From Halorubrum aquaticum (GTDB lineage: Archaea; Halobacteriota; Halobacteria; Halobacteriales; Haloferacaceae), in the NCBI RefSeq assembly GCF_900113615.1, contig NZ_FOPZ01000003.1, positions 1 to 64,000 on the forward strand: a DNA stretch of 64,000 bases, read 5' to 3'. The position numbers were made by a program, and so were the translations under genes. Below, piece after piece: positions 238 through 40,651 of this stretch (its first letter is position 1; every line of letters begins with the position of its first letter). The notes under the pieces are model-generated. The model was not told the origin of the DNA. It searched no databases and was given only the letters and a program-made list of their open reading frames with translations.

Positions 238-408
238 GCTGGGGACTTAGCAGGCTTTCATCCCATCAGAGCCCAACGGGTGGATTCTCCCGGCAACGTA
301 CCGCACAAATTTATGTCGGCTGGGCGGCGTTGTGCCAATCATGAATTGTATCGCACACTTCTCCCGTCTCCCTGCGGTCACTTCCGCTAACGTCAGTGGG
401 GTGTCGTG

Positions 409-2298
409 ATGAGCGGTCAGTGGGGCTTCACCACGTCTCGGCCGACCGATGCTCGATACGGTGACGACGTCGCAAAGTACGCGATGTCGCACGGTGAACC
501 CGGGCTGAAGACTTTCGTCCGAGAGGTACTACAGAACTCGAACGACGCACGGTTGGACAACGATCAACCAGCACGGGTGACGTTCAAGCTGGAATCCTTA
601 CAAGACGACGAGGCAATTGAGTATCTCAGGGCACTGGATATCGAGACGTGGTCTGACCACGCTAATCTAGCGACAGACACGGAGAGCGGGAAGCATATCG
701 CTGAGGCGATCAAACGGATACAAGACGAAGAGGAGCTCCGGGTTCTGACTATTGAGGACGAGAACACGGAGGGACTCCTCGGTGAAGAGAACGCCGACGA
801 ATCCAACTTCACTGCTCTCGTTCGGGACGTTCTATTCAGCAGCAAGTCGGGAGACACCGCCGGCGGGAGTTATGGTCTAGGGAAAGCTGTTCTCTGGCTG
901 TACTCGGGCCTTTCACTCGTCATGTTCAACTCCACGCTGAGCGAACCTGACCCGGAAGACCAGTCCCCCCGGCTGATCGGTCGGACGCGCTTGCCAACAC
1001 ACAAGTCTGAGGACGGAGATACGGTCTACCAAGGACACGGTTGGTACGGTAGTCTGAACAGCGACGAGGAAGGTGCGAGACCCGAGTCTATCTGGGGAGA
1101 CGAATCCGAATCGATCGCAGATGCCCTCCATTTGAGCCGTCCGGACGTACCGGGAACGAGCATCCAAGTCGTGGATTTCCGTGTACCCACAGCGGAAGAG
1201 CGACTGGATAACGAGGAGTTAGCGGACCAGATCACGGAGATGGCAATCGAATGGTTCTGGCCCGCGATTTATCGTGGTGATCTGGAGGTGGCAGTTGAAG
1301 TAGAAGGCGAGACGAAGCAAGCAAGTATCGACGAATATCCCCAGTACGAACCCTTCACGACCTGTCTAGACGACCGAGATGATTCGGTCAGCCAACTGGA
1401 CGAACCTGGAGATGTAGCTCAGGAGACGATCTCACTGAACGTACCCGAGAAGAGTGACGGCGGTGATGGTGCAGACGGCCAACTTGATTTACTAGTTCGA
1501 TATGCAGATTCGGGCGAGTATCAGCATCGGAACGAGGTAGCGTTCGTCCGAGGCGCGGGGATGGTCGTTGAGTACTACGACCGAAATCGAGTCGTCGTTG
1601 GAAACCAAGACTTTCACGCCGTCCTCCTCGGTGGCCGTGCACGTACGTGGGGGACTGATGAGAGCTCCCGAGACGCAGACACTATCGTAGAGGAATTCTT
1701 GACCGCTGCAGAGCCGCCTCAACACGACGAGTGGGTACGAACGGAGACACTGGCGAACTCCTACTCTCGGGGATTCCGGACCGCAGTGGAGGGTGTCAAA
1801 TCCGACGTGACCGAGACGTTACGTGGACTCGTCGCACCGGACGTTGACCGAGGCACGACTGGACCTCAGCGTCTGGGGAACCGGTTCAAAATCGGAAACG
1901 AAGCAAGAGGTGGTCGAGCTGATCGTGAGTCGCCCAGTAGCCAGCGTGTTACCGGAAACACGAACATCTCCTTTGACGAGGTGTACACACACTGGTCATT
2001 CAATGGTGAAGTGGAACCCTTGAGCGACCGAAACGAGATACGGGCGGTGACCGTCTCACTGATCCGGATGGCTGAGGAAAGAGCGACTTCGGATCGTCTC
2101 CCGGTACAGAACATCTCGTCAGATACGGCCGGCGTTTCGATATCGCTTCCGGAGCAGAATGGAGTCCAAGTAGGTCGGCTGGAGCCAACTTCTGGCACAT
2201 CGAAAATCTCCTTTGAGGGAGTTTCGACAGAAGACAATAGACAGGTTGAGACCAGATTGAAAGTGTCGGTTGACGTGGCAGAGCGGAGGGAGAAATAA
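409..2298 (+). CDS. GHKL-type ATPase, first gene of a three-gene operon
   Basis: This 629-residue protein has a Bergerat-fold (GHKL/Hsp90-like) ATP-binding module at its N-terminus. The N-box is E39-N43-D46 in VREVLQNSNDAR. A DEN-rich motif near residue 117 and a glycine lid GGSYGLGK at 152-159 complete the pocket. The remaining 450 residues match nothing I recognise. MORC- or Hsp90-like ATPases with large unknown tails are recurrent parts of prokaryotic antiphage operons, so a sensing or clamp role is plausible but inferred. The ATG at 409 was preferred to the GTG at 406. The next gene overlaps the stop codon (TAATG at 2296-2300), so the genes are translationally coupled. Confidence 0.75.
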   Translation: MSGQWGFTTSRPTDARYGDDVAKYAMSHGEPGLKTFVREVLQNSNDARLDNDQPARVTFKLESLQDDEAIEYLRALDIETWSDHANLATDTESGKHIAEAIKRIQDEEELRVLTIEDENTEGLLGEENADESNFTALVRDVLFSSKSGDTAGGSYGLGKAVLWLYSGLSLVMFNSTLSEPDPEDQSPRLIGRTRLPTHKSEDGDTVYQGHGWYGSLNSDEEGARPESIWGDESESIADALHLSRPDVPGTSIQVVDFRVPTAEERLDNEELADQITEMAIEWFWPAIYRGDLEVAVEVEGETKQASIDEYPQYEPFTTCLDDRDDSVSQLDEPGDVAQETISLNVPEKSDGGDGADGQLDLLVRYADSGEYQHRNEVAFVRGAGMVVEYYDRNRVVVGNQDFHAVLLGGRARTWGTDESSRDADTIVEEFLTAAEPPQHDEWVRTETLANSYSRGFRTAVEGVKSDVTETLRGLVAPDVDRGTTGPQRLGNRFKIGNEARGGRADRESPSSQRVTGNTNISFDEVYTHWSFNGEVEPLSDRNEIRAVTVSLIRMAEERATSDRLPVQNISSDTAGVSISLPEQNGVQVGRLEPTSGTSKISFEGVSTEDNRQVETRLKVSVDVAERREK

Positions 2299-3362
2299 TG
2301 GCGACTGTCAACGAGGGAGTTGAAGGTACAGAACCGGAAGAAGAAGAAGATGTCCGGACCGGTAGCTTAGTCAGCCAGTCTCTTCCGCATAAGTACCGAG
2401 AAGAAGCGCTGGAATTCGATGTTGATTCTTTTCGTCTAGATGGATCTCCACTCAGTGATAGAGGTGAACTGGATGAGGATGATCAGTTCCTGTCCTTGGT
2501 GGACGAGGGTAACTGGGAGACGTTGGAGTTGGAAGGTACGGTCGCCGTGGATCAGGACACTGTTGAGGAGGTCTTCCCGTTTGACGAGTGGGAGGGGACG
2601 CCAGGTCGCCTGGCACTGGTGACGGAGAACCCCCTCGCAATGAGTCGAGATCGGCAGATACTCGCCGACTCTCCCTTCAATGGAGGTTCCTACGAGTTCA
2701 CTCTGTCCATCAACCGTGACGACTACCGTGGGCAGGTGAAGATCAAGCCGTTCCTCACCAGAACCGAGAAAGGTGGATCTGGTGGATCAAAACACGCGTC
2801 TAAGGTCGGTTCACGAGTCGCTGACGGCATTTCGTGGATCGTCCGACTTGACGAAAGGGACGACGGCGGAAGCCTTCTCATGCCGATCATTGAGGACTTC
2901 AGCGACTACGACAGCTTCCCCGACGAGAATCACATCCACTATCTCAGCCTAGAGGCACCTCGGAACCCACAGCTCTACCTGAACAGAGAACATCCACAGG
3001 TGGTTGAGGTTCTGAACAACACGGGATACACGGGTGGACCTCCCCGACTGCGAGACGTACTCTATGATTACATTGAGCACTCCGTCTGGACGCAACTACT
3101 GTTACAGACAGCACGTGATACGAGCCCAGACACCGGCGAACCAGAGTACGGCTGGCAGGAAGACGTATTAGACATCTTCTTAGATGATTTGTATCCGAAC
3201 CTTGCAGACGACGAAGCGGCGATTCAACTTGCTGAAGATGTCCGGAGTCACGTTGACATTCCGGATCTTGTTCAGCGGATCGGGCGTACGGTTCACCAGC
3301 AGTACGATATCCCGTCGGATACCACGAATCTGATTGAGGAGGCGATCCAGAGTGACGACTGA
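2298..3362 (+). CDS. uncharacterised acidic protein, second gene of GHKL operon
   Basis: This 354-residue, strongly acidic, soluble protein begins inside the stop codon of the GHKL ATPase gene and overlaps the start of the third gene. I see no catalytic motif, membrane segment or signal peptide. The middle (about residues 100-240) alternates predicted strands and charged turns with a glycine-rich loop (GGSGGSK). The C-terminal third looks helical. Its tight coupling to an ATPase gene suggests an obligate partner or effector, but no function can be assigned from sequence. Confidence 0.7.
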   Translation: MATVNEGVEGTEPEEEEDVRTGSLVSQSLPHKYREEALEFDVDSFRLDGSPLSDRGELDEDDQFLSLVDEGNWETLELEGTVAVDQDTVEEVFPFDEWEGTPGRLALVTENPLAMSRDRQILADSPFNGGSYEFTLSINRDDYRGQVKIKPFLTRTEKGGSGGSKHASKVGSRVADGISWIVRLDERDDGGSLLMPIIEDFSDYDSFPDENHIHYLSLEAPRNPQLYLNREHPQVVEVLNNTGYTGGPPRLRDVLYDYIEHSVWTQLLLQTARDTSPDTGEPEYGWQEDVLDIFLDDLYPNLADDEAAIQLAEDVRSHVDIPDLVQRIGRTVHQQYDIPSDTTNLIEEAIQSDD

Positions 3363-4143
3363 GCTTTACCACTTACAGAGTGCAGCCCATCCGATGATCG
3401 ACAACCGATTCCTTGCGGGTGACCGCGAGCTCACGAAGGATGACCTCCGTCCGTACTTACAGCCGCTAGGTCGATCTATAGACCTAAGTCCGGTAGACGA
3501 GCGAATTGAGGAGATTCGAGCAGACGATGACATTGACGCCCAGGATCCTCTCATTGACGCCGAGTTAGCACCCACACTCCACCGCACTCTCGATCTGACA
3601 CGCAACGAAGCAGCAGACGCTGGGCTGTGGCACTACCTCTGTATCGTTCGGTTCCCAGAGTTCGTTCACTACCGGTGGGATCATGTATTCGATCCGGAGA
3701 GTCCGGACAATATGGAAGAGAAGTTTCTGAAGGCCGGTACGGACGCCTACTCCAATGCACTGCACCGGATCTGGTGGGGTGCTGAACTCACCTACGAGGA
3801 GGCTGACTCAGGGGCGGTTGAGGATCGGGACTACAGTCGAACGAAGCAGGTCCTCGGTTTTCAGGAACTCGCCAACGATATCCTAGACCACGATTTCGCA
3901 CGATACAGTCCTGTTACGCACGCCTGCGGCGATCTCCTCTGTCACGACACACTAAACGAGATCAAGGAAGAGGACACGTATGGTGATCCCCCCTCTAACA
4001 GTAACATCGTGAGTCGAACCACGACGCTACTCCGGGAGGAGCTGACAGTCCGACGTGTAGAGATGATGGACGAAGACAATATCGTAGAGACGATAGAGGA
4101 TCTACGTGACGACGTGATGCGTGGGGAGGCCGGTTGGTCGTAG
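3352..4143 (+). CDS. DUF6339-like protein, third gene of GHKL operon
   Basis: This 263-residue protein is taken from the GTG at 3352, which has a GGAGG ribosome site about ten bases upstream and lies inside the end of gene 2. It is soluble, with a conserved-looking core around LWHYLCIVRFPEFVHYRW (about residues 85-102). That pattern (leading LYHL, then LWxYLC, then a Tyr/Arg/Trp cluster) reminds me of DUF6339 proteins, a family of unknown activity often found beside ATPases in defence neighbourhoods; the match is from memory. No nuclease motif is evident. It ends the operon: the next 210 bases are AT-richer and non-coding. Confidence 0.65.
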   Translation: MTTELYHLQSAAHPMIDNRFLAGDRELTKDDLRPYLQPLGRSIDLSPVDERIEEIRADDDIDAQDPLIDAELAPTLHRTLDLTRNEAADAGLWHYLCIVRFPEFVHYRWDHVFDPESPDNMEEKFLKAGTDAYSNALHRIWWGAELTYEEADSGAVEDRDYSRTKQVLGFQELANDILDHDFARYSPVTHACGDLLCHDTLNEIKEEDTYGDPPSNSNIVSRTTTLLREELTVRRVEMMDEDNIVETIEDLRDDVMRGEAGWS

Positions 4144-5284: not shown

Positions 5285-5315
5285 ATTCTGATTTAATATA
5301 CAAATAGTTTTTATA
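5285..5315. promoter_or_regulatory. AT-rich bidirectional promoter region
   Basis: The stretch around TTTAATATACAAATAG (5291-5306) reads as a TATA-like element on both strands. The plus-strand ATG at 5320 and the minus-strand TTG at 5273 each lie 20-28 bases away, the spacing expected for leaderless haloarchaeal transcripts. This supports divergent transcription of the small minus-strand gene and the operon that follows. Confidence 0.45.
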
Positions 5316-5319
5316 ATGA

Positions 5320-5688
5320 ATGCATTACCCAGAAGTGGCTGAAAACGCCCCCGGTGCTGAGACACCGGGAACATCGCTGCCAGCTATGACAGCAAACGAC
5401 ACTAATCGTGTCGGGAGTGATAACTCTGACTCTCGGGCCCCCGAGAGTGCGGAGATCGTCTCCGAACACGATACACGATACAGACGAATCGTCGAAGAAA
5501 CACGCGCCGTTGGCGGCACGACGACGCGCAGAGATCTCGTTGCGAGAACCGATCTTCCTCCAGCGGATCTGGATACCCAGCTTCGGAAGTTGACGGATAG
5601 CGGTTACGTCGATCTGATCGGTGAGTCTGAGCACGAACTGATCGTGCTCACACACCGTGGCGAACGTCTCACTGGAGGCCAGCGATGA
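5320..5688 (+). CDS. winged-helix protein, first gene of the AddAB-like operon
   Basis: A 122-residue protein. The first 50 residues are low-complexity and acidic. The C-terminal 70 form a winged helix: TTRRDLVARTDLPPADLDTQLRKL is the helix-turn-helix, and GYVDLIGESEHELIVLTHRG is the wing. It begins 20-28 bases after a TATA-like block, so it is probably leaderless. Its stop overlaps the next start. Likely an operon-specific DNA-binding protein, either an autoregulator or a DNA adaptor for the nuclease complex; that role is inferred from position. Confidence 0.65.
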   Translation: MHYPEVAENAPGAETPGTSLPAMTANDTNRVGSDNSDSRAPESAEIVSEHDTRYRRIVEETRAVGGTTTRRDLVARTDLPPADLDTQLRKLTDSGYVDLIGESEHELIVLTHRGERLTGGQR

Positions 5689-6065
5689 CGGGTCCCGACG
5701 AAGGTTACGGCATACCGATCGATCCGGACGACGCGTTCAGGGTGATGTCCAACAGCCGTCGTCGGCAGGTGGTCTTATCGCTTACACAGTCGGACGAGCC
5801 GCTCACTGCCTCCGAACTGGCCCGTGAGATTGCCGCGATAGAGAACCTCGTCGATCCGAGTGAAGTGACAGGAGAGCAGCGAACGACCGTCTACGTCGCC
5901 CTGATTCAATCTCACCTAGAGACGCTGGACGATGTTGGTGTGGTGGATTACGACGAAAGGGGGAAGCGAGTCAAGGCGACCCGAGCTACGCAGCCGATCG
6001 CCAGTCACATCCGAGAAATCACCCGCGTGTGCTACGAACCGGAGGGATCCGAATGCCCCGTGTGA
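5685..6065 (+). CDS. DUF7344-like winged-helix protein
   Basis: A 126-residue protein with the typical haloarchaeal layout of a short acidic leader, then DDAFRVMSNSRRRQVVLSL and LTASELAREIA, a recognition helix, and a VDYDERGKRVKAT wing. These features match DUF7344-type transcription factors, usually found beside genes they regulate. The start at 5685 overlaps the previous stop (ATGA). With two winged-helix genes heading the operon, one may be the regulator and the other a structural DNA-binding part. Confidence 0.7.
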   Translation: MTGPDEGYGIPIDPDDAFRVMSNSRRRQVVLSLTQSDEPLTASELAREIAAIENLVDPSEVTGEQRTTVYVALIQSHLETLDDVGVVDYDERGKRVKATRATQPIASHIREITRVCYEPEGSECPV

Positions 6066-6550
6066 ATGACGACGATCTAACTGGGGAGCTGGTGATTCGG
6101 AATCTGACGTATCAGTTCGACCGGACGCTCCAGCTGTTGGAGTGTCTCACCGTGGATAACGGTGAAACCGAACCGTTCGTCAGCGTGTTGGGATCCTACT
6201 CGCAGCGGAAGGTGGAGTTTGCTGCGGAACAGGCACTTACCGGTTGGTCGCTACCGACGGATACGACCTGTAGCGAGTGTGGTCAGACTCTCGGTCCCTA
6301 CGAGCCAGTCACAGTCGTAGCCCGAAGACCCTTGGAGTTACTCACGTGGTTTCTCGACTCGTTTGTCTGCGACGAGTGCGACACGACGCTCGACCCCAAA
6401 CCGGACAGTATGGACGTGATCGCGTCCGCGTGGATCACCAAATGGGACGACCCCGAGTACAGGCGACCGATGATGCTGAGCGAGATTACTGTCGAGGAAG
6501 CGAGCGGGACCCACTATCGCGGTGACGTGGATATGGAGGTCACCGAGTGA
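6053..6550 (+). CDS. zinc-ribbon protein of the AddAB-like operon
   Basis: A 165-residue protein from the ATG at 6053, 13 bases inside the preceding gene. Two Cys pairs, CSECG near residue 73 and CDECD near residue 110, can form one zinc ribbon split by a strand-rich insert. The N-terminal 60 residues are a helical domain with no match I recognise. Position between the DNA-binding proteins and the helicase subunits suggests a bridging or loading factor. The stop overlaps the next start at 6550. Confidence 0.65.
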   Translation: MPRVNDDDLTGELVIRNLTYQFDRTLQLLECLTVDNGETEPFVSVLGSYSQRKVEFAAEQALTGWSLPTDTTCSECGQTLGPYEPVTVVARRPLELLTWFLDSFVCDECDTTLDPKPDSMDVIASAWITKWDDPEYRRPMMLSEITVEEASGTHYRGDVDMEVTE

Positions 6551-7434
6551 TGACCGACAACGGTTCAGGCAGGGACGCTGTAGCAACGGGAACGACGAGT
6601 CGTCGTCGAAAAACAATGGAAGTCGAACGCAGCCAGGTCGATCGGATGCCGGACCAACTGACGGTTCACGTAGGTGGCGAAGACGCCTTGTGGGAGCGGG
6701 CTCAGCGGTGTACCCAACCGATAGAACTCATTGTCTCCCCCGTTGAGCTCCATCAACGGAACCTTCAGCGCCGGCTACGAGAGGCGAACCTTCCGAAGAA
6801 CGCTTTCTCTTTCGAAGATCCCGTCGGAATAAGCAATCAGATACTAGATCAGACGAGGGGATCGACGACGACCATCGACCGGATCGATCGTCTCAGTCTG
6901 CTCCGGTCCTTCTTCGACGGATCGACGCCTGATGAGGAGATGGAAGTCTCTCTCCCACCCGGGATTTCGTCTCGCGCTCCACAACAGATCGAGCAGATCC
7001 GCACGGAGGTCGAGACGATCACCAACTTCCACCCCCAGCGTGTCGCAGCGTGGCGAAACACGGCAACCGAAATCTACCATCCAATCGACGAAGAGGCCGA
7101 GGTGTTTCTCGAAACCGCACTCGCCGTGGAGCGTCAGCTTCGAGAGCGAACTACAAAGGCTGTCTCGGAGACCGGCCTCATCCGGCGTGCGACTCGTTCG
7201 CTGGTACGGACGGACGGATCCGTCTGGGAGGAGGCGTACCCGGACATCCAGCGTGTCTCCCTGCTCGGTCTCAGCAGTCTCTCCGCTCCACACACGGACT
7301 TGGTACACGCGCTGTGTGCGACGACGCCCGTTGAGGTACACGTTCATTTTCGATCCGGAACCGGGGAGTACCTGCAGAGCCGGGTCGAGAGCCTCCTCGA
7401 TATCACTAATCCCGGAACTGAGGTGTTCGAATGA
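6550..7434 (+). CDS. AddB/RexB-like N-terminal half (first part of a split subunit)
   Basis: A 294-residue protein from the ATG at 6550, overlapping the previous stop. The start of the folded part (LTVHVGGEDALWERAQ, then IELIVSPVELHQRNLQRRL) and the helical DQTRGSTTTIDRIDRLSLLRSFF resemble the inactivated helicase domain 1 of AddB-type proteins. It stops just where AddB would continue into domain 2, and that domain is encoded by the next gene, which overlaps by four bases. I see no nuclease motif. The AddB assignment rests on this arrangement and on the AddA-like partner downstream, not on strong motif matches. Confidence 0.55.
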   Translation: MTDNGSGRDAVATGTTSRRRKTMEVERSQVDRMPDQLTVHVGGEDALWERAQRCTQPIELIVSPVELHQRNLQRRLREANLPKNAFSFEDPVGISNQILDQTRGSTTTIDRIDRLSLLRSFFDGSTPDEEMEVSLPPGISSRAPQQIEQIRTEVETITNFHPQRVAAWRNTATEIYHPIDEEAEVFLETALAVERQLRERTTKAVSETGLIRRATRSLVRTDGSVWEEAYPDIQRVSLLGLSSLSAPHTDLVHALCATTPVEVHVHFRSGTGEYLQSRVESLLDITNPGTEVFE

Positions 7435-8669
7435 CGTCTTCGAATAGACTTGCGCTCTCCGGGACAATCGAGACACCCGACGTTCCGACTGTTGAAATCG
7501 TGTCGCCGACGCGTCGAGAGGAAGCACGATGTGCGATGGCCGTCGTATCCGAACTCCGTAATCGGGACGTGCCGATTCGGGATATCGCCGTCGTGGTTCG
7601 AGACCTCGACCCGTACGAGGAACCGTTGTTCCGTGCGGCGGTCCAGTACGGCATCACGCCCGTGTTCTGGACACAGTTGCGGGTGACGAGAACCCGACCG
7701 TACGCACTTATCGCGGCCGTCTGTGAAACTCTGGCGGAGGATAGCACCGACTTGGAGACGCTGATTCAGCCACTCGAACTCGGCTGGGCACCGCCCGAAG
7801 CAGGGTCCGAGACGTGGCCGCTCTCGCCGAGAGAGCTGTATCGATCGGTCGAGCGACTACCACGTGATGCCCGGACAGCTTCAGAGTGGAGCGAGATCGT
7901 CGAAGCGACCGACGGTGTAGATACCCGACTCCGACAGTTCGCGGAGTGGGTTTCGGACGCTCCGAATCCGGAACCGGAGTCGATCGCTTCGTTGCTTGAC
8001 GACGTGGTCGAAGCGTACGCGGAACACGGGCTTCCAGAGACGAAAGCCGTGGATTCGCCGGCGTTACTCGAAACGGAACTTGATGCTCGCGCGGTCGTCC
8101 GCGTTCGGACGCTGGTTCAGCAGTTGCGACTCAAGTTCGCTGATCGGCTCGAAGAAGGCACCGTCGCACGCTCCTGGGGCGACGTCGCCGAACTCGCTGG
8201 TGTGATCGCTACACAACGGCCAGGCCGCCGGGAGCACTCGAACGCTCGGGCGCTGGACGTACTGGAGGCGAACGACGTGTGGGCACTGGATATTCCGTAC
8301 GTCATCACCCTCGGGTTAACGGACGACCAGTGGCCCCAGCCACCACAGTCCCTGATTCCCCCGGAATTTCGAGAGGCAGTTCTGCGCGGAGACGAACGGG
8401 CGGAGGTTCTCGCGCCGCAACCGGTGTGGGCTGGCGGCCGAGACCGCGACCAGTTCCTAGACACGCTTCGATCGGCGGGCCGGTGCGTCATTCTGTCGAG
8501 ACACACACGAACGGCTGAAGGCGACGACGTGCCACCTTCACCGCTCCTCGATCATCTCGATCCGGAGCGCGTCACCGAGGAAGCGAGACGACGGCTGGTC
8601 GGGACTGAGCGTGACCTTCCACCGGAAGTGCAGGGATTCGTCAAGGAAACGGAGGAGCCGGATGAGTGA
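7431..8669 (+). CDS. AddB-like C-terminal half, UvrD-type domain without nuclease
   Basis: A 412-residue protein. VEIVSPTRREEARCAMAVV and IRDIAVVVRDLDPYEEPLFR match helicase motif IV-like segments of AddB/RexB and UvrD proteins. PYVITLGLTDDQWPQ matches the conserved segment before motif VI (xGLxxxxxP). No RecB-type nuclease domain or iron-sulphur cysteines are present, unlike bacterial AddB. Together with the preceding gene it reconstitutes one degenerate helicase subunit of about 700 residues. The stop overlaps the AddA-like start at 8662 (ATGAGTGA), so expression is coupled. Confidence 0.65.
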   Translation: MTSSNRLALSGTIETPDVPTVEIVSPTRREEARCAMAVVSELRNRDVPIRDIAVVVRDLDPYEEPLFRAAVQYGITPVFWTQLRVTRTRPYALIAAVCETLAEDSTDLETLIQPLELGWAPPEAGSETWPLSPRELYRSVERLPRDARTASEWSEIVEATDGVDTRLRQFAEWVSDAPNPEPESIASLLDDVVEAYAEHGLPETKAVDSPALLETELDARAVVRVRTLVQQLRLKFADRLEEGTVARSWGDVAELAGVIATQRPGRREHSNARALDVLEANDVWALDIPYVITLGLTDDQWPQPPQSLIPPEFREAVLRGDERAEVLAPQPVWAGGRDRDQFLDTLRSAGRCVILSRHTRTAEGDDVPPSPLLDHLDPERVTEEARRRLVGTERDLPPEVQGFVKETEEPDE

Positions 8670-11600
8670 CGACACTGGCGACGGAGATGTGGACCCGATC
8701 GTTCTGCAGGACGCACAGCGAGCGATACGAGAAGCGTACTTCGACTACGAAACCGGGCTCTTCACGCTGAACTGCGTACCTGGCTCCGGAAAATCGGTGG
8801 TCGCCCATCACCTCGCTGCAGAAGATATCCTTCGTCGATACGTGGCTGGCGACCCTACGCCGGAGCTACACGTCGCGGTGGTCTCGTTCAACCGCGATGA
8901 GGCCGCCGACATCATTCCGGAGGTCTGCGAGAGACTGGAGACGATCGTTGAACACGACCTCGTTCCAGTCGCGTCCGATATCTCCGACGAAGAGCTACAG
9001 TACCTCCTCCAGCGCATCCGACAAGCCCCCTACGTTGGAACCATCGATGGGCTCCTGCGTAGTATTCTTCAGGATATCGCTCACGATGCCGGCTTCGACG
9101 AGATGCCGTCGGTGGGGAACGACGCACTGCTGAACCGAGTCCACCGTGACTGTTACGAACGGCTTCAGAGTACCCCGGACTACACCGAACGACTTGACGC
9201 TCTCGAAGCAGCATACCCCGATGGAGAGTACGACGACAGCGTCGCCGAAATGCTCGAAGCCGCGCTCACGTTCTGCCGCGACCAGCGCATCTCGACTGCG
9301 GAGTTCCGGGACGAGTTGGAGCGGACGCGCGACTCTACGTATCCCGGTGGAAAACCGGACTCGTTTTCCGATATCGTGCGGTCGGTCGAACGGTTCGCCG
9401 GCGACGATGAGGCCGTCGGCGAACGGATTAGAGACGCGGTACACGAGTTGGACCGCGACCGGCTGCTCGAAGCCGACCGCGAGCTGTACGAGGCGTGGTG
9501 TGACCGGATCGACGACTTCTGTACGGTCCTTTCGGCGTACCGTGCCGCGTATCGTGAGACCGTCCGTGACTACGGTGTCGTCGCTCACACCGATGTCGCC
9601 TATCTCGTGGACGCCTACTTTGACGACACGACTGACCGGTCGGAGCTTCCCGAGCCACTCCGCGCTATCGACGACTCGCACCGAACACGAGTCCTCCAGC
9701 GGTACCGGTCACGGATCCAGAGCCTGATCATTGACGAGGCCCAGGACGTTTCGGCCATCCAGCACGCAGCGCTGTCCCATCTCGTGACTGACGACTCACG
9801 CGTGTTCGCCTGTGGAGATGTTCTACAGGGAATCTACCTGTGGCGGCACGCCGACCCGACCTGGTTCGACGCCGCAACGAGGGGAGGCGAGTACCTCGGC
9901 GTTGACTGGGACACACACGAGAATCGGACCGCGACCACGACGTATCGGTGTGTCCCCGACATCGCTGCGGGTATTAACGCGATCGCCGAGCCGATGGTCA
10001 CCGATCTTGCTCGTGGGAATATCGGTGACCTGGACACCACGTACGCACGGTTGGACGCGGCTCGTGACGGTACCGACGAGCCATCGGTACACGTCTCCTC
10101 GTTCACCGGCATCGGTCACCCCGGATCGGAAGCGTGGGCGAATCCCGATGGAGAGGTCGGAGAGGCGAACATGCTGGCGACTCACATCTCACGAGGGTTC
10201 GCCGACGGTACGTTCTGCGACGACGAGGGCGAGCCACTGGATGTCACGGTGCTGTTCCGACGTGGTACTCGAATGCCAGAGTACGAGAAAGCGTTCGCTG
10301 CGGAGGGTCTCCGCGTCCACACCACGGGTGAGGGGCTATTCGACTGTCCTGCGGTCGAAGCTGTGTTTGCCGTCTGCGACTGGCTAGAACACCCTGGCTC
10401 TCCTGACCGTACGGAGACTCTTCTCACCGAACCTCTGCTGGGTATCATCGAGGACACGGAAGCGTTTGAGGCCCACTCCTGGGATCTAGACCGTGTACTT
10501 AGCGAAAATGTACTTGACCTCACAGAGACGCAACGGCGGACACTGCGTGCTCTGCTTCGGCTCCGTGATCGAAGTGACGTCTTCCAACGCCAGCCGGCCA
10601 GCGTGTACGTAGAAGAAATCGTCGAAGCGCTCGAACTGAGAGCCGATCCACAGAAGATAGCCACTGGAAGTGGACCCAAACAACGAGTCGCCAATCTGGA
10701 TGCGCTCGTCGAGACTCTCTCCCAGTGGGAGGGTGAGACGCATTACACGCCGGCCGAATTGACGGACCTCGTACAACCGTTCCGCGACGATCCCGACGAT
10801 GGTCCGACGCAGCCGAGTACGACGGCAACCACGTACGACGTCGAATTCCGAACCGCACATAGGGCAAAAGGAGATCAAGACGACGTCGTCGTCATGGCTG
10901 ACCCCGGATTCGACGTCTGGTCTCAAGGCCCGCATACCCAGCGGTTCATCACGCAGGCCTCGATTGCGGGACTCGCACCACCGACGGACACAGATATCCC
11001 CCGTGACATCACGATTCCGCCATTCGGGTGCGGACTTTATGAGGCACCGGGCGGGTTTGACCGTGACACCGGCCTTCGCTGGGCGACTGCCCATTGGTTC
11101 GACTCCGTGTCCGATTCAGCGCCCCGTGACGAACTCGTCGGCTCCGAACGTCTGTGTCGCGTCGCGGCGAACGAACGCGCCGAAGCATGGCGCTTGTTGT
11201 ACGTGGTGCTGACTCGTGCCCGGGACCACCTCGTCGTACCGCTACCTCGCTCCGACTTTGAGGGAGACCAATCACGAGATCGGTGGCTCGACACGATCCG
11301 TGAAGGGATCGAATTCGATCAATCCGGCACCGACTCGTACACGCTCGAACTCGGTGCCTCGGATCCGAACGCGGATGATATCGAGATCGGCGTCAACGAC
11401 GCTGACTTGTTCACAGAGTGGCGTCCGACGGGAGCCCCCCCGACCAACAACGGAGTTTCGGTAACTCCGCCACGGCGAGGCGATCTTGAACGGTGGATCC
11501 CCCGGTTCCTCGATCCTAGCACGATGTATCCACTGACGGAGTCGCTGGACGAGCACATCATTCCGCATCTGCTGGGTGAGCCGCTTCACACCGAGACGAA

Positions 11601-12216
11601 CGATGTCCGTGACGACATTCCGCTACAGTTCGACGAGCTGGGTCCGGAAGACGTGGGATCCTGTTTACACGAGGTTCTGACTACGACCGTCGAACGCGAG
11701 GTCTCTGAAGAGACACTCGATTCGCCGAAGGACGAAGTTCGCAACGTGTTCGACGACGTCATTGACGACCGCGCTCCGCGAATCGACGACGACGAACGTG
11801 ACGGACTGTTCACGTTCTTCCGAGGGGAAGTCCTCGACGACTTCCTTGCGTCCGACCTCTGGAGTCGTATTCAACGGGCCGAACGCGTTTCGGTTGAGCG
11901 GCCTGTCGATGGGCTCCTCACGATCGACGACGTCGAAATCGAAATCCACGGGACGATCGACTTCATCGTCGAGTCACCCACCGGAGAACGGCACGTGGTA
12001 GACGTGAAAATCACACTGACGGACCCAACACCGGAAACACGACGACGGTACGAGCTCCAAGTGGCAGCCTACTCGTACCTCCTCGAACAGCAGCAACACT
12101 CGAAAACCTCCGTACATCGGACTGTGGAGACCTTCGGAGTCGAGCGTGAGACAGTAGAGTCGTCGTGGCCGTCGGACGTCGTGAAACGGAGACTCGCTGC
12201 TCTAGTTCGACAGTAG
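8662..12216 (+). CDS. AddA/UvrD-like helicase fused to RecB-type nuclease
   Basis: A 1184-residue SF1 helicase-nuclease. Walker A is CVPGSGKS at about 38-45, motif Ia-like VVSFNRDEA follows, motif II is LIIDEAQDVS, motif III lies in FACGDVLQGIYLWRHADP, and motif V/VI are FRTAHRAKGDQDD and LLYVVLTRARD. The C-terminus holds a RecB-family PD-(D/E)XK nuclease: an SCLHEVL histidine motif, GTIDFIV with the metal-binding Asp, VVDVKIT with D-x-K, and QVAAYSY. The full set of residues argues for an active ATP-driven DNA translocase and nuclease. It probably acts with the two AddB-like proteins encoded just upstream. Confidence 0.85.
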   Translation: MSDDTGDGDVDPIVLQDAQRAIREAYFDYETGLFTLNCVPGSGKSVVAHHLAAEDILRRYVAGDPTPELHVAVVSFNRDEAADIIPEVCERLETIVEHDLVPVASDISDEELQYLLQRIRQAPYVGTIDGLLRSILQDIAHDAGFDEMPSVGNDALLNRVHRDCYERLQSTPDYTERLDALEAAYPDGEYDDSVAEMLEAALTFCRDQRISTAEFRDELERTRDSTYPGGKPDSFSDIVRSVERFAGDDEAVGERIRDAVHELDRDRLLEADRELYEAWCDRIDDFCTVLSAYRAAYRETVRDYGVVAHTDVAYLVDAYFDDTTDRSELPEPLRAIDDSHRTRVLQRYRSRIQSLIIDEAQDVSAIQHAALSHLVTDDSRVFACGDVLQGIYLWRHADPTWFDAATRGGEYLGVDWDTHENRTATTTYRCVPDIAAGINAIAEPMVTDLARGNIGDLDTTYARLDAARDGTDEPSVHVSSFTGIGHPGSEAWANPDGEVGEANMLATHISRGFADGTFCDDEGEPLDVTVLFRRGTRMPEYEKAFAAEGLRVHTTGEGLFDCPAVEAVFAVCDWLEHPGSPDRTETLLTEPLLGIIEDTEAFEAHSWDLDRVLSENVLDLTETQRRTLRALLRLRDRSDVFQRQPASVYVEEIVEALELRADPQKIATGSGPKQRVANLDALVETLSQWEGETHYTPAELTDLVQPFRDDPDDGPTQPSTTATTYDVEFRTAHRAKGDQDDVVVMADPGFDVWSQGPHTQRFITQASIAGLAPPTDTDIPRDITIPPFGCGLYEAPGGFDRDTGLRWATAHWFDSVSDSAPRDELVGSERLCRVAANERAEAWRLLYVVLTRARDHLVVPLPRSDFEGDQSRDRWLDTIREGIEFDQSGTDSYTLELGASDPNADDIEIGVNDADLFTEWRPTGAPPTNNGVSVTPPRRGDLERWIPRFLDPSTMYPLTESLDEHIIPHLLGEPLHTETNDVRDDIPLQFDELGPEDVGSCLHEVLTTTVEREVSEETLDSPKDEVRNVFDDVIDDRAPRIDDDERDGLFTFFRGEVLDDFLASDLWSRIQRAERVSVERPVDGLLTIDDVEIEIHGTIDFIVESPTGERHVVDVKITLTDPTPETRRRYELQVAAYSYLLEQQQHSKTSVHRTVETFGVERETVESSWPSDVVKRRLAALVRQ

Positions 12217-12373
12217 CCGCCTGAGTGGCGACGATCCCACTTCACATCTACCGGACTGAAACCCAACGCGAATGACTTTCATGAAGAATCGCCCCAAACG
12301 CAAACCGGACCGAATGAATACTTCTCTGTCTCACGGCTGACCCTTTTCCCGCAAACGCTCATATGAGGTGTGC

Positions 12374-13813
12374 ATGACGAACCCAAACGCCCTTCCGTCG
12401 GCCGATAAAGCCCTCAACACGGACGCCTACTTTCGACTCTATCAGGGCGCGCTCCGGATCAAGGACCCAAGTGCACGACTCGCCGCCTGTTATATCATCC
12501 TGCTCGCTGGGCGACTTGGACTCCGCCTCCAAGAGATTCAACACCTCCGTGAGGAGTGGATCGACTGGCGACGCGGCGAAATCAAGATACCCAGCTACGA
12601 TCCCTGCGGCTGCAAGCGGTGTTGGCTCACTGCCCGCGACATCTGGGGCCGCCGCGGCCTATCGGAGCTCCAAGACAAAGGCGAGTGGGATGGTGACATC
12701 AAGTGGCGGGACCTGAACGCAGACGCCCGCGACACCGTCGTTGAGAAGGCGAGCTATTGTCGGCCAGAGAGCTTAGAGGACATCCTCTACAGCGAGCGCT
12801 GGGAACCCAAATACGACCGGTCAGCACGTACCGTCCCATTCGGGTGGTCTGAACGCATCACTGCGTGCCTCATAACATTCTTCGACCACAATGACTGTCT
12901 CCAACACCAGCGGTACTCGGTAAGCCGACTGATTACGAAAGCTGCGGAAAACGCCAACGGCGTGGACCCTGATGAGCTGTCTCCCCATCCACTTCGAGCG
13001 ACCGGTCTCACGTTTCTTGCGGACATTTCTGTTGACCCGAAGATGCTATGCGACCTTGCGGGTTGGCAAGATATCCAGACCGCTGCCCGATACCTGCGGG
13101 AGAGTGGCCGCATTACAAGCCACAAGGTATACTCGTTGCTCGGAAAAGAAGACGAAGCTCCGCCTGTCGTGCCGTCCGAGCCCGAGTATCAATATCCAGT
13201 CGTGATGAATCCGGTTCCGTTTGAGGGGGAGCCGTTCGCGCCGATCACGCCAGACGGAATTCGGTTCGACCGAGATGTCCGGCTTGCCCGCCATCATGAG
13301 CAACGTGATACCCCGATTCGGCTCGTCCATCCACGCGAGGCTTCGCTCCCGTACAACTATGCTGGCTTCCCGGACGTAGACGATCTGAGTTACGATCCCC
13401 GGAAGCACGATCTACCTGGTCATTTGGATTGGGATTCCGACCGCGTTCAGTTTGACAAAGGTGAACCTGTGACGACAGCGACGACGATTGCAGACCTTGA
13501 GGACCCTCACCGTGTAGATCCAAGTGAGCATGCGCTACCGGAAGAGTACCGTGCGGAGACAGTGGACACCCGGCTGTCGGACTATCTTGACGAGGACCAC
13601 GACAGCGACAGGTTGGCGGCTACAACCTTCACAGGTGCGGCCGTGTTCACGGCTGGAACTGTGTGGTCGCGGCTTGGTCGGGAGTGGGATCAATACTGGA
13701 TGGCTGGTGGGGGTGCTGTCCCAGACGGAAAACGACTGGCGAAGGGAACAACCGCGTACATCATGCTGGTTGTGTGGCCACTAGCGGTGAATCTCGCGTT
13801 CCTCTTTCAGTAG
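12374..13813 (+). CDS. tyrosine recombinase with C-terminal extension and membrane segments
   Basis: A 479-residue site-specific recombinase. The catalytic set is visible: R51 in GLRLQEI, H205-x-x-R208 in HPLRATG, W231 in LAGWQ, and nucleophile Y240 in AARYL. A Cys cluster (C78, C80, C83 in CGCKRC) may bind zinc. Residues after about 260 form a 220-residue tail, ending in two hydrophobic segments (near 425-445 and 460-479), which is unusual for an integrase. It follows the AddAB-like operon and may mark the boundary of an integrated segment. The ATG at 12374 is used because the reading begins MTNPNALPS. Confidence 0.8.
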   Translation: MTNPNALPSADKALNTDAYFRLYQGALRIKDPSARLAACYIILLAGRLGLRLQEIQHLREEWIDWRRGEIKIPSYDPCGCKRCWLTARDIWGRRGLSELQDKGEWDGDIKWRDLNADARDTVVEKASYCRPESLEDILYSERWEPKYDRSARTVPFGWSERITACLITFFDHNDCLQHQRYSVSRLITKAAENANGVDPDELSPHPLRATGLTFLADISVDPKMLCDLAGWQDIQTAARYLRESGRITSHKVYSLLGKEDEAPPVVPSEPEYQYPVVMNPVPFEGEPFAPITPDGIRFDRDVRLARHHEQRDTPIRLVHPREASLPYNYAGFPDVDDLSYDPRKHDLPGHLDWDSDRVQFDKGEPVTTATTIADLEDPHRVDPSEHALPEEYRAETVDTRLSDYLDEDHDSDRLAATTFTGAAVFTAGTVWSRLGREWDQYWMAGGGAVPDGKRLAKGTTAYIMLVVWPLAVNLAFLFQ

Positions 13814-13960
13814 ATAGGGATTCGTGAAATTCTCAGTAGGGGATAGTCTTCAATAACGTGCTGAATACAGGGTTCGAGTCTTGGACGACATTTCCTGTAG
13901 ATTGAACCAAATTGAATCGGTCAATACAGTTCTGGACCGAGTCATAGCGTGGTTAAGCAT

Positions 13961-14599: not shown

Positions 14600-16003
14600 A
14601 TGGCCTTCTACAACAGGAACAATGAACTGGAGGCTCTCAACGCGGCATTCGAGTCACCGGGCCACGACTTCTACGTCATCTATGGTAGACGGAGGATCGG
14701 GAAGACAGAACTTCTAAAAGAGTTCTGCCAACATCGGTCTCACGTCTATTTCCTCGCCTCTCAGGAAGCCGAGGAACGACAACGAGAGAAATTTGTTGAG
14801 CAAATAGCGGATCACTTCGACGATCGCGTACCGAGAATCGACGGATGGGACGAGGCTCTGGAGTACTTGGGAGATAAGATCGCGGATAAAGATCTCATCG
14901 TCGCCATTGACGAGTTCCCATATCTCGTCGAAGAGAACGATTCACTCCCGTCCTACTTCCAGTCGTTCGTGGACGAGCATCTGCAGGAAACGGACTCGAT
15001 GCTCGTTCTCTGTGGGTCAAGCATCAGTACGATGGAGTCGGAAGTGCTCGGTCACGAGAGCCCCCTCTATGGTCGTAGAACTGGACAACTCAACGTCCAG
15101 CCGTTCTCGTTTCAGCAGGCACGCGAGGTCATCCTGTATGATATTGAGGACGCGATTCGATCCTATTCGGTCACCGGTGGGACGCCGATGTATCTTACCC
15201 TGTTCGACTATTTCGACTCTTCTCCTGCTGAGAACATTCGATCTCACATCCTCTCGCCGTCGGCAGTACTCTACAATGAGCCGGAATTCCTCCTTCGGAC
15301 GGAACTACGGAGTCCAGCACGCTACATGAGCATCTTGGAGTCAATCGCCCTCGGCCACACAACACCGAACGAGATCTCGGGGGCGACCGGGATCGACTCG
15401 GGGCCCCTCTCGAAATATCTCCGTAAGCTCCAGCAGCTGCGGCTCATCGATCGGGAAGTACCCGTGACCGCATCGGCGAAGAAGTCGAAGCGCTCCAAGT
15501 ACTACGTCGCGGACGAGTTCCTCCGGTTCTGGTTCCGTTACGTCGAGCCGAACCGATCGAGTATCGAGGAAGCACCGGCAATCGTATACGAGAACACGAT
15601 CGAACCTGACCTCCCGAACCACGTCGGCGAGACGTTCGAAGACATCTGTCAGGAGGCGATCTGGGAAGGTATTCGACGCGAAGAGTTTGAGCAGTACTCG
15701 GAGCTCGGCCGGTGGTGGTACGGTGAGAATGAGATCGATATTGTCGGGCTCTCGCCGACAGACGACAGAATTCTCTTTGCCGAGTGTAAGTGGACCTCTG
15801 AGCCGGTTGGCCGGGGACTCGTCGAAGACCTCCGTGCGAAAACCGAATACGTACGGTGGGGACCGGCTTCTCGGACTGAACGATTCGCGTTGTTTTCGAG
15901 GAGCGGGTTCGTGGAGGGACTCGATCAGGAGTTGGATGATGCGTGGTCGCTGTTCGATGTTAGTGAAATTGACCGAATCTTAGGAAGACCAACCGAGATC
16001 TGA
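14600..16003 (+). CDS. archaeal AAA/STAND ATPase with DUF234 nuclease-like domain
   Basis: A 467-residue ATPase_2-type protein. Walker A is GRRRIGKTE at 29-37, Walker B is LIVAIDEF at about 99-106, and LCGSSISTME is the sensor segment. A winged helix covers about residues 255-290. The C-terminal DUF234 domain has ENEIDIVGL and LFAECKW, the D...ExK signature of PD-(D/E)XK nucleases. The family is abundant in archaea, often mobile, and of unclear role. A paralogue lies at 60010-61401. Palindromic operators precede the start. Confidence 0.85.
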   Translation: MAFYNRNNELEALNAAFESPGHDFYVIYGRRRIGKTELLKEFCQHRSHVYFLASQEAEERQREKFVEQIADHFDDRVPRIDGWDEALEYLGDKIADKDLIVAIDEFPYLVEENDSLPSYFQSFVDEHLQETDSMLVLCGSSISTMESEVLGHESPLYGRRTGQLNVQPFSFQQAREVILYDIEDAIRSYSVTGGTPMYLTLFDYFDSSPAENIRSHILSPSAVLYNEPEFLLRTELRSPARYMSILESIALGHTTPNEISGATGIDSGPLSKYLRKLQQLRLIDREVPVTASAKKSKRSKYYVADEFLRFWFRYVEPNRSSIEEAPAIVYENTIEPDLPNHVGETFEDICQEAIWEGIRREEFEQYSELGRWWYGENEIDIVGLSPTDDRILFAECKWTSEPVGRGLVEDLRAKTEYVRWGPASRTERFALFSRSGFVEGLDQELDDAWSLFDVSEIDRILGRPTEI

Positions 16004-37521: not shown

Positions 37522-38059
37522 GTATCGCAGAACGCTGTGCCTCACATTACTTTTATAATTCGAGGGGCAGTTGGTCGCGGAGCGAACACGGTATTTGACC
37601 GCCCAACGCGCGCGAAGGCGCACGCGCTCAGGATGACCTGTGCCAGTCCGAACAGCTCCTGTTGCCTCCATTGTTTATGTGCCACTGGAGCCAGATAGCT
37701 CACTCTAAATGTGACCAGGTACGCAATGGCACAATTTTCACGCTGGTCCCCAAAAGGGACCCGTTTAGCAGATGATGCGCCAGATGTTCGGCAACGAGTA
37801 ACGAACATCTACACTCCTTTAACTTCTATTTCGACCCTGAGCGACCGCTTCGTCCACAGTTGGCTCCCATCTGGGTGTGGTCGCAGTGACCGACTCGGAC
37901 GACTTCTTCGGGCAACTCGAAGAGGCCACGGCGACGAACTGTTAATCTCCGATGTGTCGCTCGGCGTCGATTCTGCCGGTGTACATTCGAGTAGCACCGC
38001 ATCACCACGGACAACGGGACCACCAGTAGTCTTTTGCGAGTTGGTGGGCAAAGTCAGGT

Positions 38060-38212
38060 ATGAGTCTCACTTCGGACGACTTCGAGGAGTTCGTTTCCTC
38101 TGACCCCGATGATGACGAAACGGTCCCGCTCGGACAGGCACTCTCAGAGCTGGGACTCGATGTCGAGGTTGACTCCGTCGAAGCCGTTCGTGACGTCCGC
38201 GAACGGTTATGA
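38060..38212 (+). CDS. VapB-like antitoxin
   Basis: A 50-residue acidic protein from the ATG at 38060 (MSLTSDDFEEFV..., ending VRERL). It lies directly upstream of a PIN-domain gene and overlaps it by four bases (TTATGA at 38207-38212). Its size, acidity and linkage fit a type II antitoxin wrapping a VapC toxin. No DNA-binding fold is obvious in such a short protein. Confidence 0.6.
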   Translation: MSLTSDDFEEFVSSDPDDDETVPLGQALSELGLDVEVDSVEAVRDVRERL

Positions 38213-38612
38213 GGATACTTCTCGACACTAACGTTCTCGTCGCAGCAGTTACTCGGGATACCGATCGGTCCGATGAGGCAATCGAACTGCTTGACCGAGT
38301 TGATGACCCCCACTCGTTTCGGTTCTCAGTCTCATGGAACTACGGAGTGTTCTGAGCAAAAAGAAACGGTTCGAACGGGACCGAATCGATGCCATCGAGA
38401 ACCGAGTTACCGCTCGTATGACCGTGACTTTTCCAGACGCCTCCGATATGATGGCGGCGAACCGCCTCCAATCGGAAACGCTGTTGTACCCCATGGACGC
38501 GATGATCCTTTCGGCGGCCGACGCTGCCGACGCAACCCTCGTCTCGTTTGATTCCGAATTGGTCGAGCACGGTGCGGATCTCCCTCAACAACTGCTCGAC
38601 GAGGACGAGTGA
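38209..38612 (+). pseudogene. VapC-like PIN-domain toxin, frameshifted
   Basis: The frame opens MRILLDTNVLVAAVT with the first PIN acidic residue D6, and runs to a stop at about 38360. In the +1 frame from 38332 the protein continues SLMELRSVLSKKKRFER, then MDAMILSAADAADATLVSFD with the other PIN acidic residues, to TGA at 38610-38612. The Glu of MELR and the two later Asp residues complete the RNase site. One frameshift near 38330 inactivates it unless it is a base-calling error. Confidence 0.7.
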
Positions 38613-38639
38613 ATCGGGTCACCACGGCACGCGAAGGAC

Positions 38640-38810
38640 GTGACCGGTATCGGGTTCACCGATATCGAAGACCATATCGAGCGCTTCCTGAACGAGGTGT
38701 CCAGATCAGTGACGGACGATAACGCCAGTGGATCCGCGCCCGAAGACCTGAACCATTTCGATACGCTCCGGATCACGACCTTCTCGGCCTATCTCATGTC
38801 GTGTTCATAA
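38640..38810 (+). CDS. short ORF or gene remnant after VapC
   Basis: A GTG-started frame of 56 codons (VTGIGFTDIEDHIERFLNEV, ending SAYLMSCS) has haloarchaeal-like composition, but no ribosome site or known domain. It is more likely the C-terminal relic of a lost gene at the island edge. Confidence 0.25.
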   Translation: MTGIGFTDIEDHIERFLNEVSRSVTDDNASGSAPEDLNHFDTLRITTFSAYLMSCS

Positions 38811-38906
38811 ATCAAACACAGCCGACTACTCATGCGCCAGAATGTTCCAACGAGTAGACACGGTCGTCGAACGACGCCCGTCGACCACGACGACGGGTCC
38901 GCTCGA

Positions 38907-40091
38907 TCACCTCTCGAAACCGTCCTCCCATCGGAAGGTCCCGTCGCGCTGGACGACCTCGCCGTCGACGGCCATGACGGAACCCGTGCTCACGTCGCTT
39001 ATCATGTCGACGTGAACCGCGCTCTCGTTACCGGACTCGCCGTCCGGCAGGCAGGCGTCGTAGGCGCGGCCGACCGCGAGGTGGACCGTGTCGCCCATCT
39101 TCTCGTCGAAGAGGATCGAGTCGGTAAAGCGATCGATCCCGCGGTTCATCCCGATGCCGAGCTCGCCGAGCCGACGGGCTCCCGGGTCCGTCTCGAGGAC
39201 GCTCGCGAGCGCGTCCTCGCCCGTTTCGGCGGCGAAGTCGGCGACCTCGCCGTCCTCGAAGACGAGGTGGACGTTCCCGACGCGGGTCGCGTCGATCGTC
39301 ATCGGGACGTCGAAGAAGACCTCGCCTTCGGTGTCGTAGGGTGCGGTGAACACCTCTCCGGAGGGGAGATTGTGCGAGTCGTACGCCACCGACGCGGCGG
39401 AGTTGACCGCCGTCCGGCCCGCGATCGACATCGTCAGGTCGGTATCGGGCGCGTCCTCGCGCTCGGTGTGGATCCGGACCTCCTCGCCCGCATCGAGGAT
39501 CCGCTTCATCTCCGCCATCTCCTCGGCGAGGGCCTCCCAGTCACGCAGGACGGCGTCGTAGACGAACTCGCGATACTCCTCGTAGGCCATTCCGGCCTGC
39601 TGGGCGAGCGAGCGGGTGGGGTGGACCGTCGACACCCAGTCGGTGTCCATCCGGCGCTCTCTGACTTCCTGCCGGGACCTCGCGTGGGCGCGTCTGGTTT
39701 CGCGGGGCACGTCCGCGGTCGCGGCCGTGTTGCGGCCGCCGCCGAGTCGGAGGTAGACGTCGGCCGCCTCGAAGAGCGCCCGGTCGACGACCGGGTCGGG
39801 GAACTCGGGGACGGATGCGGCGGGGTCGTCGCCGCCAGCGTCCTCGTCGCTCTCCTCTCCTACCTCTCCTTCCTTGCTCCGCGACGTGGCCCCCTGTAGA
39901 TACGCCCGGTTCATCTCGTCGGAGCCGTACAGCGTCGTCACGGCCGCGCCGCGCTCGCCGAGCGCCTCCGCGACGGCGACGCCGAGCTCGTGTGTGTCCT
40001 CGGCGACGCTCACGACGACGTGGTCCCCGGGATCGACCCGCGCGCTCCAGTCGACGAGCACCTCTGCGTGTTCGCGTACGCGTTCGTCCAT
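38907..40091 (-). CDS. M29-family aminopeptidase
   Basis: A 394-residue metallopeptidase of the thermophilic aminopeptidase (AmpS/M29) type. Metal and catalytic residues of the family fall in GEVFTAPYDTEGEVFFDV (Glu), ELGIGMNRGI, DEKMGDTVHLAVGRAY (Glu and His) and AVHVDMISD (His and Asp). It acts in the cytosol on short peptides. A 20-residue acidic, low-complexity insert (about 73-92) is unusual but harmless. From here on the sequence is GC-rich and coding is dense, so this is core chromosome. Confidence 0.85.
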   Translation of the reverse strand: MDERVREHAEVLVDWSARVDPGDHVVVSVAEDTHELGVAVAEALGERGAAVTTLYGSDEMNRAYLQGATSRSKEGEVGEESDEDAGGDDPAASVPEFPDPVVDRALFEAADVYLRLGGGRNTAATADVPRETRRAHARSRQEVRERRMDTDWVSTVHPTRSLAQQAGMAYEEYREFVYDAVLRDWEALAEEMAEMKRILDAGEEVRIHTEREDAPDTDLTMSIAGRTAVNSAASVAYDSHNLPSGEVFTAPYDTEGEVFFDVPMTIDATRVGNVHLVFEDGEVADFAAETGEDALASVLETDPGARRLGELGIGMNRGIDRFTDSILFDEKMGDTVHLAVGRAYDACLPDGESGNESAVHVDMISDVSTGSVMAVDGEVVQRDGTFRWEDGFER

Positions 40092-40261
40092 GATGATCGG
40101 CGAGTCGTGGCCGGGAGGTAAATCGGTGCCGACGCACTGAACGCCTCGCCGAGCTCGGCGGTCGGCGACTCCACCGCACGTAGCGTCGTGGGTTCCGGAC
40201 AGGTTACGAACGAGGCCGTCTCCGAAGCCGGCTTTTTAGTCGTGCGCCTCGACCCGAGGGT

Positions 40262-40651
40262 ATGGCCGACCGGAACGTCCACGGGGGGAAACTCGCCGCC
40301 TGTAGCACGGACCCGACGACCGGCTTCGAGCGCGACGGCTGCTGTGGAACCCACCCCGACGACCGAGGGCGACACGAGCTCTGTGCGGTGATGACCGCCG
40401 AGTTCCTGCGGTTCAGCAGGGAACGGGGCAACGACCTCGTGACGCCGCGGCCGAAGCTCTCCTTTCCCGGGCTCGACCCCGGCGACCGCTGGTGTCTCTG
40501 TCTCGGGCGTTGGGTCGAGGCGCTGGAGGCCACGCGGAGCCGGCGACTCCCTGAGACGACGGTTCCGCCCGTCGTCCTCGAGGCGACCAACGAGGCCGTG
40601 CTCGACACGGTCGAACTGGAGACGCTCGAGGCTCACGCATACGACGCGTGA
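40262..40651 (+). CDS. DUF2237 family protein
   Basis: A 129-residue protein with the full DUF2237 pattern: GGKLAACSTDPTTGFERDGCC, HELCAVMTAEFLRFSRERGNDL, LKPGDRWCLCLGRW-like (here LDPGDRWCLCLGRW) and PPVVLEATNEAVL. The family is widespread in bacteria and haloarchaea and of unknown function. The conserved cysteines (CC, CxC) suggest a metal or redox role. It is convergent with pepF, 10 bases away. Confidence 0.85.
   Translation: MADRNVHGGKLAACSTDPTTGFERDGCCGTHPDDRGRHELCAVMTAEFLRFSRERGNDLVTPRPKLSFPGLDPGDRWCLCLGRWVEALEATRSRRLPETTVPPVVLEATNEAVLDTVELETLEAHAYDA

Follow-up and report, generated by a model that had tools for sequence, protein, structure and literature searches.

The six overlapping genes in the first part of the window (the whole 64,000-nucleotide stretch analysed here, from the first part of a 256-kb contig of the 3.18-Mb Halorubrum aquaticum genome) are predicted to specify a mobile, accessory end-processing machine of the AddAB/RecBCD type. 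It would consist of three chains: a complete AddA-like protein (A) and two smaller proteins (BN and BC), which together rebuild the AddB scaffold. From the conserved residues, the gene order, the distribution and the structural model of a relative, we put this reading at roughly four chances in five. In textbooks AddAB and RecBCD are machines of bacteria, and end resection in archaea is usually credited to HerA-NurA and Mre11-Rad50. The operon belongs to an unannotated AddAB-type family found in about a fifth of haloarchaea and offers a candidate accessory nuclease in genetically tractable organisms.

The operon (5298-12216) comprises one promoter block followed by six genes in the same direction (Table 1), each of which overlaps its successor by 4-13 nt: 4 nt for H1/H2, ZN/BN and BN/BC, 13 nt for H2/ZN (6053-6065) and 8 nt for BC/A (8662-8669). 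The ORF layout bears out the series of overlapping co-directional genes read off in the preliminary description, and Pfam supports its winged helices and its AddA. H1 probably starts at 5386 rather than 5320, since in relatives the aligned promoter and leader are non-coding; the start of A is most likely 8662 rather than 8611. H1 shows only weak ArsR/MarR-like matches in Pfam. ZN has no Pfam family; its four cysteines are all invariant in the family alignment, and its AF2 model is of low confidence (pLDDT 67, with four of five models near 40). The winged-helix and zinc genes, first described as the operon's own, do not belong to its core, as they are absent from most loci: 12 distinct loci, Halorubrum aquaticum included, carry the H1-H2 pair, seven carry ZN and five an HNH nuclease.

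Table 1. Features of the operon and its surroundings in the window, followed by related features in other loci (positions in the loci named)
Feature	Position	Strand	Evidence
Conserved promoter block ATACAAATANNTTTTATA, TATA-like, upstream of H1	5298..5315	+	motif search of loci and genomes
Conserved leader with dyads/hairpins, running into the H1 start	5336..5430	+	15-sequence alignment
H1, small winged-helix protein, 100 aa	5386..5688 (ORF opens 5320)	+	weak Pfam, family alignment
H2, DUF7344 winged-helix protein	5685..6065	+	Pfam PF24035, 6.7e-23
ZN, two invariant CxxC pairs, no known family	6053..6550	+	alignment
BN, N-terminal AddB-like half (first helicase core), no Walker A	6547..7434	+	alignment with fused relatives
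BC, C-terminal AddB-like half (second helicase core), ending before the nuclease domain	7431..8669	+	alignment, fold of fused relative
A, AddA-like SF1 helicase with RecB-type nuclease, 1184 aa	8662..12216	+	Pfam, conserved catalytic residues
Tyrosine recombinase (integrase) after A; associated, not core	12374..13813	+	Pfam PF00589, 1.2e-9
PDC-M33 A/B/C candidate defence system, upstream; associated, not core	406..4143	+	PADLOC, DUF6339, homology
Promoter-leader module copies away from AddAB (loci L203, L205, L195)	about 1386-1520 (L195)	reverse (L195)	
HNH nuclease, Halorubrum saccharovorum (locus L112)	8341-9117		PHROGs HNH, 2e-9
HNH nuclease, loci L144, L118, L123, L040			PHROGs HNH, 2e-9

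A matches the UvrD-helicase (1.5e-16) and PDDEXK_1 (7.9e-11) families of Pfam. In a comparison of 23 relatives with 34-76% identity to the Halorubrum aquaticum protein, the helicase residues K44, D358-E359, Q389, R429, K736 and R852 and the nuclease residues H1003, D1100, D/E1114, K1116, Q1133 and Y1137 are conserved in 23 of 23 sequences, the sole variation at the tested motif positions being the choice of D or E at 1114. Judged by these residues, A is an intact helicase-nuclease, in agreement with its earlier description as a full AddA with all key residues.

The identity of BN and BC emerges from structure. Neither has a family in Pfam, PADLOC or PHROGs or a meaningful NCBIfam match; Pfam detects no helicase or nuclease domain in them, and no Walker A motif is visible. 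Sequence profiles of BC searched against the PDB did not retrieve AddB, which was found by fold comparison alone. Some BC relatives carry BN and BC joined as one protein of ~700 aa, and we folded such a natural fusion, the 716-aa protein of Halomicrobium katesii, with an alignment that included BN and BC of Halorubrum aquaticum. In a Foldseek search of the PDB, the first five ranks for the resulting AF2 model (pLDDT 89.4, pTM 0.86) are all AddB chains (E 1e-15 to 2e-16). VIA-align matches the model to AddB with a Z-score of 21.9 over 603 residues at 5.0 Å rmsd, the match being limited to the helicase-like part (residues 2-718); the runners-up are UvrD (Z up to 20.4), AdnA (17.0) and RecC (16.7). 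The split point corresponds to a low-confidence linker at about residues 287-308 of the fused model, between the two helicase cores, and BC stops at the point where AddB's nuclease domain would begin, that domain being absent. Through alignment to this folded relative, BN and BC are predicted to be the two halves of an AddB that lacks its nuclease domain. The split, nuclease-less AddB proposed before is thereby sustained, and the fused protein is predicted to fold like an SF1 helicase. In nearly every locus the AddB-like gene stands next to the AddA-like one, and the plasmid-borne AddB genes of the family are annotated as ‘hypothetical protein’.

The 84 distinct loci with AddA show three forms of AddB: split in 53, fused in 21 and long (~1150 aa) in 10. 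The gene order BN-BC-A recurs in all of the split loci, and in 49 of them BC starts inside a 4-nt overlap with BN; hence the arrangement is not due to chance. The long versions (~1140-1200 aa) keep all four Fe-S cysteines together with an extra cysteine cluster, and seem from their sequences to have lost the (D/E)xK nuclease residues, which would leave a dead, RecC-like nuclease domain. On the AddA tree (quick method, midpoint root) the long form makes up one clade, and the split form requires at least two changes; therefore fission or fusion occurred more than once. Long, fused and split forms make a plausible series without proven direction. One could take the split for an artefact, a one-piece AddB interrupted by frameshift or decay, and one-piece versions do exist in sister clades, but the AddA partner stays intact; with the split so frequent and the start codon placed so regularly in the same overlap, we consider decay highly improbable. 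The recurrence across loci instead marks the AddB split as old and maintained. The family makes visible an AddB whose nuclease domain is seemingly dead, then one from which the domain is absent, and then one broken in two at the hinge, a natural dissection of this subunit.

The BC/AddB family is found in 72 of 391 Halobacteria genomes and 32 of 86 genera, and on 16 plasmid records; in a sample of 393 genomes from the phylum, only Halobacteria gave matches. Of 145 haloarchaea, 144 have NurA. Given this near-universality, the AddAB-type machine is a supplement to the core set for end resection, not a substitute. Tabulated in this way the operon is patchy, not core, and its depiction as an accessory engine, out of place beside the ordinary archaeal set, is upheld; so is its mobile setting, with the plasmid records, an adjacent tyrosine recombinase that recurs in other genera, and near-identical AddAB copies in Halobacterium and Halohasta. 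As these two genera belong to different families, the copies point to transfer of the operon between haloarchaeal families. The integrase also follows A in Halorubrum saccharovorum, Halobiforma haloterrestris and Haloferax sulfurifontis. The integrase region (12319-13814) has 85-86% DNA identity to the Halobiforma and Haloferax copies, as against only 65-72% for A, and the integrase must therefore have moved or been exchanged separately. In Haloarchaeobius a 282-nt integrase remnant lies after AddA. Further downstream in the window, a protein with ATPase_2 and DUF234 (14600-16003) shares 90% protein identity with a copy at the same place in Halorubrum saccharovorum, and the G+C content climbs from ~0.55 to 0.67 over about 38000-40503, near a tRNA-Ala gene at 40503, which may be an island edge.

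On the model of AddAB and RecBCD, BN and BC would assemble with A, and the complex would load on free double-stranded DNA ends. A would supply one motor and one nuclease, the 3'-5' motor unwinding and the single nuclease cutting; BN and BC would together form an inactive helicase scaffold that splits the strands and possibly senses a sequence, as RecC and AddB do. The parts predict a machine that is ATP-driven, depends on DNA ends, and both unwinds and cuts; by this analogy, AddAB/RecBCD-like biochemistry of the operon products is likely. The benefit, on top of the resident NurA-based system, could be either the destruction of linear foreign DNA from a virus or competing element, or the processing of breaks for the element and the host; of the two, breakdown of incoming DNA seems slightly more probable.

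In bacteria AddAB and RecBCD serve in repair, which favors a view of the haloarchaeal machine as a supplementary resection system for break repair and recombination of host or plasmid. The core occupies one conserved chromosomal site in eight Halorubrum, a pattern that fits repair as well as defence, in several loci it lies on a megaplasmid or close to orc1/cdc6 or ParA genes, and most neighbors are housekeeping genes. However, a machine missing from about 80% of haloarchaea, next to a NurA that nearly all possess, is not what a repair role would lead one to expect, nor is its travelling with integrases or its being common to different families; we hold the repair role as tentative, at rather less than an even chance.

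We give close to an even chance to antiviral or anti-element defence, in which the machine would degrade linear DNA, in some loci with HNH nuclease and M33 partners. Its mobility and patchiness suit such a role, and AddAB and RecBCD have been noted as barriers to foreign DNA (PMC9751324). In five close relatives the operon has a seventh gene between ZN and BN, just before BN, which encodes an HNH nuclease extended at its C-terminus; Halorubrum aquaticum has no HNH gene at this position, and a search of its genome, run without a positive control, came back empty. The candidate defence system PDC-M33 lies directly upstream of the operon in two divergent loci, those of Halorubrum aquaticum and Haloferax massiliensis, whose M33 proteins are 30-39% identical. 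In Halorubrum aquaticum it was called by PADLOC (PDC-M33A 5.5e-35, PDC-M33C 2.8e-14) and by DUF6339 (3e-19), with B assigned by homology to the Haloferax massiliensis locus; by eye, the first PDC-M33 protein resembles a GHKL-type ATPase. The M33C family, DUF6339, occurs in 30 of 391 genomes, often in two or three copies per genome within ~20 kb, and Halorubrum aquaticum has a second copy on contig 15 (73464-73913). At the genome level, though, M33C and AddB co-occur no more than by chance (seven genomes against 5.5 expected), adjoining in two of the seven. Also at odds with defence, neighbors across loci (PADLOC and Pfam) are mixed, with some defence genes (Mokosh, Lamassu, methyltransferases) and mostly metabolic or housekeeping ones. 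Among PADLOC systems, BN, BC and ZN have no match, H2 has a weak Csa3-type match and A generic helicase or Cas4-type matches, so that the core proteins match no model beyond these last. One AddB-like nuclease has been described together with a repeat array (PMC10910872); near the operon there is no tandem or CRISPR-like array. The defence or element-specific role, first called likely, is no more than plausible: the adjoining PDC-M33 genes in two loci speak for it, and the mostly ordinary neighbors and the fixed site in eight Halorubrum against it.

The H1-H2 pair bears on the element side of this question. Each locus that bears H1 has a single copy of ATACAAATANNTTTTATA upstream of it, with 0 or 1 mismatch (one locus has the mismatch), and no further copy within 1 mismatch is present in 2.5 Mb of loci. 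Across 391 whole genomes, an extended version of the motif is matched 15 times with at most 1 mismatch: 11 matches belong to the AddAB operon and three to other H1-H2 pairs. The leader contains a dyad, CCCGGTG-N6-CACCGGG, at 5350-5369, whose inner CCGGTG/CACCGG arms are kept in 15 of 15 leaders and whose outer pair is either C-G or G-C, depending on the leader. Its RNA fold has a z-score of -3.3, and Rfam gave no match. RNAalifold reported no compensatory pair on the MAFFT alignment of leaders, in which one arm is misaligned in three rows; parsing the alignment by hand yields one such outer pair, C-G or G-C. The leader may be an array of operators or dyads in DNA for the regulators, or a structured RNA leader, and H1 and H2 together with it probably keep the operon repressed until needed.

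The three H1-H2 pairs that carry the extended motif without AddAB lie near integrase-like genes. One such pair is close to a tail tape-measure gene, which places it in a provirus, and another is followed by an HNH relative. The occurrence beside integrases and in a provirus suggests that H1-H2 is an element-linked regulatory module recruited by this branch of AddAB. H2 relatives are frequent on plasmids that have no AddAB, and thus H2 alone is not diagnostic; H1 had no plasmid match. Since H1-H2 with this promoter and leader also stands next to integrases in other places, one of them a provirus, and an integrase follows A in four loci, the regulated branch could serve a function of an integrative element, such as its replication, recombination or superinfection exclusion. 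This is quite unlikely, as the core mostly occurs without H1-H2 and no relative was found in viral contigs: in IMG/VR, BC gave no match and A matched only generic pieces of UvrD helicases. A bolder proposal is that the three-chain AddAB-type nuclease is an inducible anti-DNA weapon of mobile elements, silenced by the winged-helix pair with its near-unique promoter and structured leader, and sometimes accompanied by HNH and M33; we regard it as speculative and somewhat doubtful.

Irrespective of its role, the accessory three-chain machine can be set against known systems. Bacterial AddAB, for example that of Bacillus subtilis (PDB 3u44, 4ceh), shares with it an AddA helicase-nuclease, an SF1-like AddB scaffold and adjacent genes with B before A, and AddB chains are its best structural match. 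In contrast, the haloarchaeal AddB is split in two and lacks the C-terminal nuclease/Fe-S domain and the Walker A motif, and the host is an archaeon. The features expected of AddAB are present as regards the SF1 helicase motifs and C-terminal RecB-type nuclease residues of AddA and the inactive SF1-like fold of AddB; those missing are the C-terminal AddB nuclease with its Fe-S cysteines and an AddB made as one polypeptide, and with these two missing the operon is not a standard AddAB. RecBCD likewise combines one motor-nuclease with a nuclease-inactive scaffold, RecC, but here the scaffold is split, the operon has no RecD-type second motor (no RecD SF1B family among its proteins), and RecC is the weaker structural match (VIA-align Z about 17 versus 22). 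AdnAB too is an SF1 helicase-nuclease pair, but each of its subunits contains a motor and a nuclease, whereas here only A has either. Gabija was rejected as an identity for the operon: A matches GajB models mainly over residues 350-472, and GajA is absent from the operon proteins. The UvrD-Cas4 fusions linked to restriction-modification loci, accessory in bacteria and mesophilic archaea (Hudaiberdiev 2017, PMC5704561), resemble A in joining an SF1 helicase to a RecB/Cas4-type nuclease in accessory loci, but in the excerpted text of that paper they are described as a helicase-nuclease alone, with no AddB-like partner. HerA-NurA with Mre11-Rad50 also performs end resection of DNA in archaea, but through unrelated proteins that coexist with the AddAB-type genes. 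The operon is best classed as a variant within the AddAB/RecBCD kind, and the open-licence papers searched describe no split or haloarchaeal AddB.
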